Shown here piece after piece: positions 57,800 to 62,481 of a DNA stretch of 64,000 bases (its first letter is position 1; the number at the start of each line of letters is the position of its first letter). Source of the stretch: an uncultured Fibrobacter sp. (GTDB lineage: Bacteria; Fibrobacterota; Fibrobacteria; Fibrobacterales; Fibrobacteraceae); NCBI RefSeq assembly GCF_947305105.1, contig NZ_CAMZCS010000015.1:1-64000 (forward strand), given 5' to 3'. The notes under the pieces are model-generated. The model worked only from the letters and a program-made list of their open reading frames with translations, had not been told where the DNA came from and did no database searches. The position numbers and the translations under genes are program-made.

Positions 57800-57883
57800 A
57801 AACCCAAAAATGGGATTTTAAACGCTAAAACAAAGTTAAAAACCTATTTTAGGGTTGTTTTGTAAATAGAAAAAATCTATATT
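57800..57883 (+). promoter_or_regulatory. hipBA promoter with two inverted-repeat operators
   Basis: The -35 is TTGTTT (57855-57860), the -10 TATATT (57878-57883), with 17 bases between. Two similar inverted repeats lie upstream and over the -35: AAACCCAAAAATGGGATTT (57800-57818) and AACCTATTTTAGGGTT (57841-57856), about four helical turns apart. Each has the form AACC-N(7-8)-GG.TT. HipB-type repressors bind comparable palindromes (TATCC-N8-GGATA in E. coli), so autoregulation is likely. Confidence 0.6.
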
Positions 57884-57908
57884 GAAGAAAGATAATCAGG
57901 AGGCCGAT

Positions 57909-58262
57909 ATGTACAGGGCGACACCGCTTACAGAAAAAACAGCTCTCAAGGAGCTTGGCGAACGCATCCGTGCGCACCGTATCGCCCTGAATCTTTCGCG
58001 TGAAGCCCTCGCCGAAAAGGCGGGAATCGGCAAAAATACGCTTGTCCGGCTCGAAATGGGCCAAAGCGTGAGCCTCTCGCACCTGGTCAAGGTCCTGCTC
58101 CAGTTCGGCTTCGCCGAAGCACTCGTCGACATTGTTCCCGATTACAGCCGTAGCCCCATGATGCTCCTCCGCGAATCGCAGAAGCTGCCCCAGCGTCAAC
58201 GCGCCGGCCGCAAAAAGAAGGATGTTGACACCGCCCCCTGGGTATGGAAGGAGGATGAATGA
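57909..58262 (+). CDS. hipB: HipB-like antitoxin/XRE regulator
   Basis: A protein of 117 residues. The XRE helix-turn-helix is at about 14-70: LGERIRAHRIALNLSREALAEKAGIGKNTLVRLEMG, then LVKVLLQFG. The C-terminal 45 residues are basic and end in a WVWKEDE tail. The start at 57909 has a perfect AGGAGG; an upstream in-frame ATG at 57882 overlaps the -10 and is unlikely. The stop overlaps the hipA start (ATGA). In HipBA, HipB represses the operon and holds HipA inactive. Confidence 0.8.
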   Translation: MYRATPLTEKTALKELGERIRAHRIALNLSREALAEKAGIGKNTLVRLEMGQSVSLSHLVKVLLQFGFAEALVDIVPDYSRSPMMLLRESQKLPQRQRAGRKKKDVDTAPWVWKEDE

Positions 58263-59548
58263 TTCCCGTCGAGGTCAAGCTCTGGGGAACGACTATCGGT
58301 GCCCTCTCCCAGGAGGACGGCGACGATTTCGCCTTTTTCGAGTACAATCCCGACTTTGTCCGCAGCGGCATAGAACCCGCGCCGGTCACCATGCCCGTGC
58401 GCGCCGGCACCATCTACCGCTTCCCGGACCTTTCTCCCGCCACATTCCACAAGTTGCCAGGGCTTTTCGCCGATTCCATCCCGGACAAGTTCGGCAACAA
58501 GATTATCGACCAGTGGCTCATCCAGAACGGCAGGGAACCCAAAAGCTTCACGGCCCTTGAACGGCTCTGCTGCACCGGCTCGCGCGGCATGGGCGCACTC
58601 GAGTTTTTCCCCGCCACCGGCCCCGACCCCGTCAAGAGCGAACCCCTCGAAATCGAGAGGCTCCGCGCCCTCGCGGCAAACATCCTGGACCAGCGCAAAA
58701 AAGTGAAAGTCAAACTCCGCGAAAAAGACGCGTTCGAACAAATTGTCCGGGTCGGTTCGTCGGCCGGGGGCGCCCGCGCCAAAGTGCTCATCGCCTACAA
58801 CGAAGCGACAAAAAGCGTGCTCTCCGGGCAAGTCCGCGCCCCCGAAGGCTACGGCTACTGGCTCCTGAAATTCGACGACATCGAGAACAACCGCGACAAG
58901 GAAAACGCCGACCCCGCCGGGTTCGGGGCGCTCGAATACACCTACAGCCAAATCGCGAAGGAAGCCGGAATCCAGATGACGGAATGCCGCCTGCTGGAAG
59001 ACGGCGAGCACAGGCACTTTATGACGCGCCGCTTTGACCGCACCGAAAACGGCGGCAAACTGCACTACCAGTCGCTTGCGGCCATCGCGCATTACGACTT
59101 CAACATTGCAGGGGCGTACAGCTACGAGCAGGCCTTCACCGTTGCAAGGCAAATCGGGCTTGCCACTGCCGACATCGAGCAGATGTACCGCAGGGCCGTA
59201 TTCAACATTTGCGCGAGGAACCAGGACGACCATACGAAAAACATCGGCTTTTTGATGGACAAGCGTGGCAACTGGACGCTCGCGCCCGCTTTTGACGTCA
59301 CCTACGCCTACAACCCCGCCGGCCGCTGGACCGGAACACACCAAATGACCTTCAACGGCAAGCGCGAAAAGTTCGCCCTCGACGACTTCAAGGCGGTGGC
59401 AAAAAGTGCCGGCCTCGTGCAAGGGCGCTACAAGCGCATCCTCGAACAAGTGCAAGATTCCCTCGCCAGCTTCAAGAAGCGCGCCAAGGCGAATGATGTC
59501 CCCAAGAAACTCGTGCAGGAAGTTGAGAAGAATCTGGTGAAGGTTTAG
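58259..59548 (+). CDS. hipA: HipA-family serine/threonine kinase toxin
   Basis: A protein of 429 residues, the usual length. The N-terminal subdomain (about 1-110) includes LWGTTIGALSQ, FARSL-like ATFHKLPGLFADSIPDKFG and GSRGMGALEF. The kinase part has the phosphate-binding SSAGGARAKVLIAY (about 167-180), WLLKFD with the catalytic Lys, FMTRRFDR, and FNICARNQDDHTKNIGFL (catalytic Asp/Asn, about 310-327), then LAPAFDVTYAYN for the Mg2+-binding Asp. E. coli HipA phosphorylates glutamyl-tRNA synthetase. All catalytic elements appear intact, so it should be active when freed from HipB. Confidence 0.88.
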   Translation: MIPVEVKLWGTTIGALSQEDGDDFAFFEYNPDFVRSGIEPAPVTMPVRAGTIYRFPDLSPATFHKLPGLFADSIPDKFGNKIIDQWLIQNGREPKSFTALERLCCTGSRGMGALEFFPATGPDPVKSEPLEIERLRALAANILDQRKKVKVKLREKDAFEQIVRVGSSAGGARAKVLIAYNEATKSVLSGQVRAPEGYGYWLLKFDDIENNRDKENADPAGFGALEYTYSQIAKEAGIQMTECRLLEDGEHRHFMTRRFDRTENGGKLHYQSLAAIAHYDFNIAGAYSYEQAFTVARQIGLATADIEQMYRRAVFNICARNQDDHTKNIGFLMDKRGNWTLAPAFDVTYAYNPAGRWTGTHQMTFNGKREKFALDDFKAVAKSAGLVQGRYKRILEQVQDSLASFKKRAKANDVPKKLVQEVEKNLVKV

Positions 59549-59558
59549 TCTTTTTTTG

Positions 59559-59645
59559 ATATTCGTCCGAAAAAGTGTCAAATTTGGTGGGATATTCGTC
59601 CGAAAAAATGTCATTTTGGGCAGTTTATTCGTCCAAAAAAATGTA
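59559..59645. repeat. Three tandem 33-34-bp repeats downstream of hipA
   Basis: ATTCGTCCGAAAAAGTGTCA, ATTCGTCCGAAAAAATGTCA and ATTCGTCCAAAAAAATGTAG begin at 59561, 59594 and 59628. The spacing of 33-34 bases is about three helical turns. Multiple repeats of this type occur at ends of IS21-family elements, but no transposase is present here. They may alternatively be protein-binding sites. Confidence 0.65.
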
Positions 59646-59652
59646 GTGGGAT

Positions 59653-59682
59653 TGAAAAAATCCCCAAGCGCGAGGCCTGGGG
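59653..59682 (-). terminator. Rho-independent terminator after the 32-residue peptide gene
   Basis: On the minus strand CCCCA...TGGGG (59678-59682 with 59662-59666) encloses a G/C-rich loop and is followed by six U (59660-59655). Confidence 0.65.
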
Positions 59683-59706
59683 AGTGAGCGGCAAGAGGTC
59701 GTTACC

Positions 59707-59805
59707 TCATTTGCCCTTAGGCGGAAGGTTGGTCCGTCCACCACCGGACTTGTTGCCCGTGGTGGAGGGGAGACCTCCTGGACCCTTCGTGCGGATCTGC
59801 ATCAT
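59707..59805 (-). CDS. 32-residue Gly/Pro-rich peptide
   Basis: A short frame with an exceptionally strong AAAGGAGG site before two ATGs (59805 and 59802). The peptide is basic and Gly/Ser/Pro-rich: MQIRTKGPGGLPSTTGNK followed by SGGGRTNLPPKGK. It begins 13 bases after the HicA-like gene and is closed by a terminator, so the pair is one operon. The near-perfect translation signals argue it is a real product. The function is unknown; a small antitoxin-like, signalling or export-related peptide are all possible. Confidence 0.55.
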   Translation of the reverse strand: MMQIRTKGPGGLPSTTGNKSGGGRTNLPPKGK

Positions 59806-59818
59806 CGAATTACCTCCT

Positions 59819-60097
59819 TTATGCAGCTAAAGGTGAATCAATTTCAGGAATGGAGTTGTTTTGAATCCATCCTGTTTGGATAAGGTGTTGTCGCAAATAA
59901 CGGAAATAGTCTCTCCGAAAATTGGCGAATGTCCTTGGATCACTCGGTGTGCTCGGAACCACGATAGTCTTTTTTGCTCCTTTCGCTATATGGCGAATGA
60001 TGACGTGTTTACCGTGTCTAACGATTTCCCATCGACCAGAACGTAGGATGTTCTGAACGAAATCGCGAATATTTTTGTCGCTGGATATGTATGGCAT
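59819..60097 (-). CDS. Small HicA-like protein
   Basis: A protein of 92 residues. The segment ILRSGRWEIVRHGKHVIIRH followed by KKTIVVPSTPSDPRTFANFRRDYFRYLRQ has the order of a HicA (double-stranded RNA-binding) fold: helix, RHGKH with the His that is catalytic in HicA, a basic strand ending in VVP, and a final helix. No HicB is adjacent, and the C-terminal 20 residues are additional. AAGGAG precedes the ATG at 60097. Tandem operator-like repeats (60145-60178) lie upstream. I give a family resemblance only. Confidence 0.45.
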   Translation of the reverse strand: MPYISSDKNIRDFVQNILRSGRWEIVRHGKHVIIRHIAKGAKKTIVVPSTPSDPRTFANFRRDYFRYLRQHLIQTGWIQNNSIPEIDSPLAA

Positions 60098-60144
60098 ATT
60101 TTCTCTCCTTGTTGAAGGCAATGCTTAGAATATATCTTTTATAT

Positions 60145-60178
60145 ACGAATTCTATGTTCGTACGAATTGTATGTTCGT
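60145..60178. promoter_or_regulatory. Two abutting 17-bp operator-like repeats between divergent genes
   Basis: The 17-mer ACGAATTCTATGTTCGT (60145-60161) is followed at once by ACGAATTGTATGTTCGT (60162-60178). Each is itself an inverted repeat, ACGAA-N7-TTCGT. They lie between the HicA-like gene (minus) and the RavA-like gene (plus) and could control either. For the plus gene a -10 TATATT is at 60228-60233. Confidence 0.65.
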
Positions 60179-60259
60179 ATTATGCCATTTCAATGAAAAA
60201 ACACTTTTATTCGTGAAAAATTTTGGTTATATTTAAAACCAAGGAAAAAGGAATCTACT

Positions 60260-62199: not shown

Positions 62200-62481
62200 A
62201 TGCAAACCCCTCAAGATGCAATAACAGCGTTGCGTCAGAAATTTCCTGACGGCATGCCAGATGTTCATTCTCTTTCGGATGAACAAAAGGCATGGTTGCA
62301 TATGAAAATCCAATCTATTGCAGAAGAGATTGTCCCCTCTCAAGTGATAAGTCAACTTGAAAAAATCGGAAATCGCTTAATACACGCGACGGAAGATCTC
62401 CCTGACGATGAAATGCAGAGGATTGTATCATTTGTGTTTGCTAATATGGATGAAATCGAAACTATGTCAAAGAAGGGATAA
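62200..62481 (+). CDS. Small protein related to the N-terminus of the ViaA-like protein
   Basis: A product of 93 residues. Its LRQKFPDGMPDVHSLSDEQKAWLHMKIQ matches IREKFPSGISDVAKISEESRAWVQMKIQ at the start of the next gene, and the later DDEM-RIVSFVFANMDEI matches DNEFLGLCDTLFPNIPKI. It is thus a stand-alone copy of the N-terminal module of its neighbour. It lies 8 bases after the ATPase gene and 2 bases before the ViaA-like gene, in one operon. It may compete with or replace the module in the complex. Confidence 0.6.
   Translation: MQTPQDAITALRQKFPDGMPDVHSLSDEQKAWLHMKIQSIAEEIVPSQVISQLEKIGNRLIHATEDLPDDEMQRIVSFVFANMDEIETMSKKG

Follow-up and report, generated by a model that had tools for sequence, protein, structure and literature searches.

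HicA toxins of the type II HicAB modules have been sorted into classes 1-14, and a hicA gene adjoining viperin is among the contexts already described (Gerdes 2024, PMC10865869). MoxR-vWA-beta-propeller ternary systems carry bpMoxR and vWA genes in one operon, vWA MIDAS sites bind extended or unstructured peptides, and some of the MoxR-vWA systems come with modules for peptide processing (Kaur et al. 2020, PMC7159879). In a third setting, a defence island is kept repressed by BrxR, a WYL protein that acts through inverted repeats (Picton et al. 2022, PMC9122601). The locus described here shares features with each of these. It lies in a 64,000-nucleotide stretch of a contig from an uncultured Fibrobacter sp. 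(NZ_CAMZCS010000015.1), referred to below as the window, where a HicA-like gene is followed by a gene for a 32-residue peptide that we call pepA (Table 1). The HicA-like gene alone is of a known kind; what appears to be new is the pepA family, a second peptide family and the swapping of such small genes within one slot. Other genomes and loci are cited by G and L numbers.

Table 1. Features of the HicA-pepA operon and of the divergent bpMoxR operon
Feature	Position	Strand	Remarks
Intrinsic terminator of HicA-pepA	59661..59683	-	9 pairs, then TTTTTT
pepA micropeptide gene MMQIRTKGPGGLPSTTGNKSGGGRTNLPPKGK, 32 aa + stop	59707..59805	-	family profile E=3.9e-10
pepA Shine-Dalgarno AAAGGAGG	59813..59820	-	overlaps HicA-like stop codon
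HicA-like gene P0001, 92 aa	59819..60097	-	ATG at 60097; PADLOC HicA-like PDLC02910 E=6.4e-14
Double palindromic operator TACGAACATACAATTCGTACGAACATAGAATTCGTA	60144..60179	-	17-bp register; in 5 of 80 genus genomes
Sigma-70-like promoter TTGAAA-16-TACAAT	60166..60193	-	weak: 1 found, 1.8 expected
bpMoxR AAA+ ATPase gene, 643 aa	60260..62191	+	Pfam PF20030 E=1.3e-42; 145.6 bits vs cut-off 27
93-aa ORF of bpMoxR operon	62200..62481	+	sub-cut-off Pfam match only
vWA protein gene, 688 aa	62484..64000, on to contig 64550	+	VWA_2 E=2.9e-11
WYL regulator gene, fourth in bpMoxR operon	contig 64537-65571, beyond window		PF13280 E=4e-7

The HicA-like gene and its divergent neighbor

The initial annotation had called the first gene HicA-like, and the PADLOC profile agrees. 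The AlphaFold model (mean pLDDT 84.8) has the predicted order helix-strand-strand-strand-helix, which may correspond to the alpha-beta-beta-beta-alpha, dsRBD-like fold of HicA toxins; unlike them, the protein has longer N- and C-terminal parts and no Pfam HicA_toxin match at E up to 10, and the search of its own genome gave none either. HicA chains top the VIA structure list (Z 4.8 to 4.2), level with unrelated decarboxylase chains: HicA 6g26_F gave Z 4.8 (rmsd 2.9, 57 aligned) and 5yrz_B, from a Streptococcus toxin-antitoxin complex, Z 4.7 (rmsd 2.7, 55 aligned). The best Foldseek E was 0.34, with 6g26_F at prob 0.51, and the HicA profile had no meaningful match by sequence in the PDB. In the alignment, 18 of 18 relatives keep both H31 and H36, which are candidates for the catalytic histidine of HicA. 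Of 150 relatives' genomes, 27 hold relatives of the protein at E <= 0.01, and the closest matches in named records are Fibrobacter MAGs (99, 82, 79 and 78%). No HicB-like gene is present in the operon and no HicB-type (PF15919) match above cut-off anywhere in the genome. In contrast to HicAB, the partner here is a peptide that is not HicB.

The surroundings of HicA-like genes vary. Some stand 5' of B12-type radical-SAM genes (L019, L232) or of MkoA-like helicases (L233, L250), and for distant relatives the next gene matches a viperin query in 6 of 16 loci having 1.5-kb flanks only. The nearest relatives are followed by MSKHNGQPPINPHGAGWPSTTGGKSGGGRGGNPPKGK or close variants, none being seen behind L007. 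The words "peptide" and "Fibrobacter" are both absent from the available text of PMC10865869, and the gene, while of a known kind, is in a context class not listed in the literature compared, as far as its available text goes. In two genomes a HicA-like gene is divergent from a VWA-VWA-PP2C-like-kinase (TerY-like) cluster (L095 8299-12228; L113 5210-9128). A different, AT-rich double palindrome (TAAGAA...TTCTTA-type), perhaps another regulator's operator, lies 5' of HicA in L089, L091, L092 and L095.

Divergent from the HicA-like gene runs an operon whose fourth gene encodes a WYL regulator. Directly behind it, beyond the window, lies a gene for a NYN nuclease with an OST-HTH domain (G000:C15 65605-66321; PF01936 E=2e-36). 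The bpMoxR and vWA genes share one operon as in the ternary systems of Kaur et al. (PMC7159879), whereas the vWA match stops at about residue 642 of 688 and leaves no room for a C-terminal propeller, so the operon is not a full beta-propeller ternary system; a HicA-pepA cargo is also unmentioned in the available text of that paper. The FxSxx-COOH-type peptides of the peptide-processing modules in the same source offer another likeness, in that a MoxR-vWA operon has the gene of a small, fast-evolving peptide close by, but they travel with a metallopeptidase, of which none was seen here, and the pepA motif lacks an F-x-S ending.

The double operator proposed by the initial annotation was upheld, the whole site being unique in the window, found in 0 of 100 shuffles at up to 3 mismatches, and conserved in related genomes. 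It consists of two 19-bp palindromes in a 17-bp register with 2 bp in common, and the -10 of the sigma-70-like promoter falls within it. A 17-bp half-site with 3 mismatches is not rare (2 found vs 0.71 expected; 18 of 100 shuffles reach 2). We nevertheless consider the operator real because G031, G044 and G033 conserve it in the corresponding position with palindrome-keeping changes, as does G070, though less perfectly. Among 80 genus genomes, 5 carry the pattern, each at a single site that lies at the bpMoxR divergent promoter, against one match in 80 genomes for a reversed-pattern control. Judged from the genome sequences, HicA-pepA shares this conserved putative operator with the divergent MoxR-vWA operon.

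The other side of the same promoter is occupied by HicA-pepA in G000, G031 and G044, by pepA alone in G070 and also in G060, there without the operator, and in G033 by a DnaJ-domain/VWA-like pair, relatives of which are followed by the second peptide gene described below, pepB, in G024 and G058. The WYL gene and the operator occur together in four loci (G000, G044, G070, G033); the G031 contig ends before the expected place of the WYL gene, and G060 gave no WYL gene by clusters or by name search of the region and no operator pattern match. CapW is, like BrxR, a WYL repressor of defence islands. As with repressors of this type, the present locus combines a WYL gene in the operon with inverted repeats at a shared promoter, but the BrxR repeats are a single 11-bp pair around a 5-bp spacer (PMC9122601), where we find two overlapping palindromes in a 17-bp register.

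At the other end of the HicA-pepA operon, the terminator predicted earlier was also found, just outside the interval initially annotated. Three imperfect direct repeats, TATTCGTCC(G/A)AAAAA-TGT, were noticed by eye at 59556-59650, between this terminator and a hipA-like gene. The latter is part of a HipB-HipA-like pair (57882-59548, named by sequence only) that adjoins HicA-pepA in the window and in G031 (L093), not in G044 (L090).

The pepA family in Fibrobacterota and beyond

The 32-residue frame with strong translation signals that had been picked out from the DNA alone proved to be strongly conserved. A profile built from 15 peptides found pepA at 36 places in 30 of 167 Fibrobacterota genomes; in one search, matches with E-values above 0.01 were ignored before counting. 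The C-terminal block, P-S-x-T-G-x-x-S-G-G-G-R-G-N-x-P-x-x-K, always ends the protein, and the N-terminus varies in length and sequence across the family. A Shine-Dalgarno match of at least 5 nt precedes 53 of the 61 pepA genes with ATG. Ten full-length MSKH-type genes, a sister subfamily of the window pepA, differed at codon positions 1/2/3 by 142/140/698 (pN/pS 0.158), in a test that rests on a Fibrobacter set found by protein profile and hence mildly biased to synonymous change. We regard pepA as almost certainly a conserved protein-coding micropeptide. A chance ORF was rejected, as the frame, the motif, its C-terminal position and the Shine-Dalgarno are all conserved.

The peptide (P0002) has no family match in Pfam, NCBIfam or PHROGs, which excluded HicB or a known small antitoxin as its identity, and its profile had no meaningful match by sequence in the PDB. 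Within open-licence PMC text, the motif string GGGRGNNP gave no full-text match and the shorter GGGRGNN a single one, in what the matched text indicates is a pathogen-epitope paper. By the databases and open-licence text searched, the family is apparently undescribed.

Two DNA patterns run against IMG/VR returned 49 viral or prophage loci. Seven (L117, L124, L164, L171, L178, L182, L186) were dropped as chance by frame reading and 42 judged genuine pepA, 37 of them unfused to a known domain and five fused to a ubiquitin-like domain; as they were retrieved with a pattern set at the amino-acid level, these viral sequences lean towards synonymous differences. On plasmids, copies were seen in Hydrocarboniclastica, Cronobacter and Citrobacter, the first two without a gene call there, so that two of the three copies inspected have no annotated gene. 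The Citrobacter motif reads SGGNRGNAP; on this plasmid (Citrobacter amalonaticus Y19, L264 3023-5061), the tail WPSKTGNPSGGNRGNAPTRG ends a 101-aa protein directly behind an HNH-endonuclease-like gene.

Other searches were less productive. With pepA, tblastn of plasmids and phages returned nothing even at E 10, which is not evidence of absence since the BLAST low-complexity filter probably masks the peptide, and DNA patterns and profiles did find it. Searches with pepA DNA stretches in phages and E. coli gave nothing, apart from one that matched phage DNA mostly outside the peptide, and a pepA-alignment search of viral contigs confirmed one locus among 35 candidate stretches, a yield explained by the weakness of tblastn for so short a query.

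In the five fused cases (L116, L120, L122, L126, L159), the pepA motif is the tail of a small ubiquitin-like protein reading ...FATGSVKGN before the tail. The L120 protein was modelled as a beta-grasp fold; its best VIA match was ThiS 1zud_2 (Z 9.7, rmsd 3.0, 63 aligned), followed by MoaD and ubiquitin. A ThiF-family gene adjoins in L120 (PF00899 E=7.5e-25), with sequence look-alikes in L116, L122 and L126, and a gene in L120 and L122 carries H-S-H-x7-S-x2-D, spotted by eye, which we take to be a JAMM motif. The predicted fold and the ThiF and JAMM-motif genes are like those of ThiS/MoaD/SAMP proteins; in contrast to these, the viral protein ends in ...ATGSVKGN, followed by the pepA tail in some copies and by none in others, and tailless copies share loci with tailed ones in L116 and L122. 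For the ubiquitin-like protein, tblastn in phages returned nothing and the profile had no meaningful match by sequence in the PDB.

A second micropeptide and the shared slot

A second micropeptide family, pepB (NHANQLNPNNxxY-type, about 43-49 aa), was found at 36 places in 29 of 167 Fibrobacterota genomes. It often lies directly before pepA or replaces it; examples are L097 7579-7725, L111 6748-6894 and L228 9281-9427. The family is apparently undescribed. Its strings gave no full-text match in open-licence PMC text, tblastn found nothing in plasmids, and a pepB DNA pattern matched 0 times in viral contigs.

The regions examined held 38 pepA, 37 pepB and 36 HicA-like genes, counts that combine genome-wide matches with a few weaker ones inside the regions, some genome-wide places lying outside. 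Pairs within 400 nt on one strand numbered 13 for pepA-pepB, 12 for pepA-HicA and 2 for pepB-HicA. Within 240 nt, pepB was 5' of pepA at 12 places and pepA 5' of pepB at one. The order HicA then pepA was tight in eight loci, with gaps of 45-54 nt between matched stretches, and G163, G164 and G167 have the peptide before HicA. L106 (600-760; G001:C37) holds a deletion-like remnant in which pepA, present as its 5' half, is continued by the 3' half of a HicA-like gene.

The same upstream genes are followed by one peptide, the other or both. Behind c35, itself located behind an MkoA-like helicase (c13, PADLOC E=5e-74) or alone, pepA is found in three loci and pepB in eight, 30-48 nt away. The c79/u452 family is followed by pepA alone (3) or pepB-pepA (3), u496 by pepB alone (2) or pepB-pepA (3), and the ankyrin protein by pepB alone (three at 177 nt; L248 at 1116 nt) or pepB-pepA (2). 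PADLOC matches gave the pVip and PDC-M26A identities, a match to PDC-M72A was obtained for the ankyrin protein, and no family was found for c35, c38, c79, u452 or u496; about half of the pepA neighbors are proteins of no known family. By gene order, pepA and pepB occupy one and the same slot behind operons of the MkoA-like, ankyrin and other kinds, and the HicA-like gene, pepA and pepB recur in differing combinations at the ends of unrelated defence-type operons. Since many of the loci are orthologues, the loci counted outnumber the independent events, and the pepA-defence adjacency counts are raw, not scaled to the rate for any small gene near defence genes. No recognised defence gene adjoins the pepA genes in G088 C16, G163 C28, G111 and G127, and the queries used did not find the parent operon of several others (e.g., L100, L101, L112, L230, L240).

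Possible roles of pepA

We favor, with some reserve, a reading in which the HicA-like gene and pepA form a two-gene accessory cargo of a conflict (anti-phage-type) locus rather than a self-contained toxin-antitoxin pair; for pepA taken separately, a cargo role is likely. By analogy with BrxR, the WYL protein would repress the operator and free both operons on infection, and the HicA-like protein may be an RNA-directed effector. The peptide might be a basic and disordered docking peptide, made in large amounts by strong translation and acting in trans, with a C-terminal motif for a partner that many such systems share. This docking role is tentative. In the window locus, a candidate partner would be the peptide-binding MIDAS face of the vWA protein, since MIDAS sites bind extended or unstructured peptides (Kaur et al., PMC7159879). 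A role as vWA ligand could not account for the pepA copies next to helicase, viperin or ankyrin operons, and for helicase and ankyrin operons an RNA or ribosome partner fits better with the basic Gly-Arg motif; RNA or the ribosome is a general candidate, the motif being RGG-like.

A broader proposal, which we likewise hold to be speculative, is that pepA and pepB are a widespread, interchangeable accessory of unrelated anti-phage systems, with a tail motif read by one common partner, and that the ubiquitin-like fusion with E1-like and JAMM-type genes reflects a tag/detag or tripwire logic linking peptide release to immune effectors. If this were true, many defence operons would carry a common component of 30-50 aa missed by annotation and defence-gene databases, as the two uncalled plasmid copies and the lack of a matching profile in PHROGs, Pfam and NCBIfam illustrate. 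A single peptide shared by operons of the helicase, ankyrin, MoxR-vWA and viperin kinds would suggest that systems treated today as unrelated have a step in common, e.g., the same sensor, tag or off-switch.

Among the alternatives to an accessory cargo, the one that survives best, though improbable, is that pepA is a phage or prophage counter-defence or superinfection peptide captured by host defence loci. Such an origin would suit its frequent occurrence in prophages as a lone gene with a strong Shine-Dalgarno, often beside lysis or late genes, and its place as the tail of a virus-borne ubiquitin-like protein; the Fibrobacterota copies, however, are mostly co-directional at the end of large-ORF operons and not in prophages.

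Slightly less probable is a bicistronic module without HicB, in which pepA would serve the HicA-like toxin as a new small antitoxin. The tight gene order, the overlap of the window pepA Shine-Dalgarno with the HicA stop codon and the missing PF15919 match in the genome are all compatible with it. Yet only 12 of 38 pepA genes have a HicA-like gene within 400 nt on the same strand (26 do not) and 24 of 36 HicA-like genes lack pepA, which makes a dedicated HicA antitoxin unlikely. The order is reversed in three genomes, and no HicA was seen among the called genes near prophage and plasmid copies. As its relatives follow several unrelated operons, occur in prophages and plasmids and tail a ubiquitin-like protein, pepA is unlikely to be just an antitoxin to this HicA. 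Of the two options in the initial annotation, a small antitoxin of a new kind and a peptide with no relation to the HicA-like protein, the former is weakened and the latter nearer the mark, yet the two genes are often neighbors, both being small components that recur in one kind of defence operon.

Still somewhat less credit goes to the idea that pepA is secreted or modified, as a RiPP precursor, bacteriocin or signal would be, and that radical-SAM or other neighbors sometimes mature it. The short Gly/Pro-rich sequence would suit this, as would the radical-SAM genes near some HicA-like/pepA loci and the peptide-processing modules of some MoxR-vWA systems (PMC7159879), but the strictly C-terminal conserved block behind a variable N-terminus inverts the RiPP layout of a conserved N-terminal leader and a variable core, pepA neighbors include no recurrent gene for a modification enzyme, and pepA is also the tail of other small proteins.

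That the conserved element is instead a structured RNA (a type III-like RNA antitoxin or sRNA) with an incidental ORF is highly improbable: the transcript 59650-59822 does fold better than shuffles (z=-2.73), an effect due mostly to the terminator and to a GC-rich hairpin that lies within the ORF, but Rfam gives sub-threshold matches only, which also excluded a known RNA family, the element's sequence has no repeat array like the tandem repeats that type III antitoxins carry upstream of the toxin gene and lies 3' of the HicA-like gene, and the coding features speak for the peptide, with Shine-Dalgarno sequences kept, pepA fused to other proteins, change falling mostly at third positions with the amino acids kept, and the same peptide encoded in other bacteria by different DNA.
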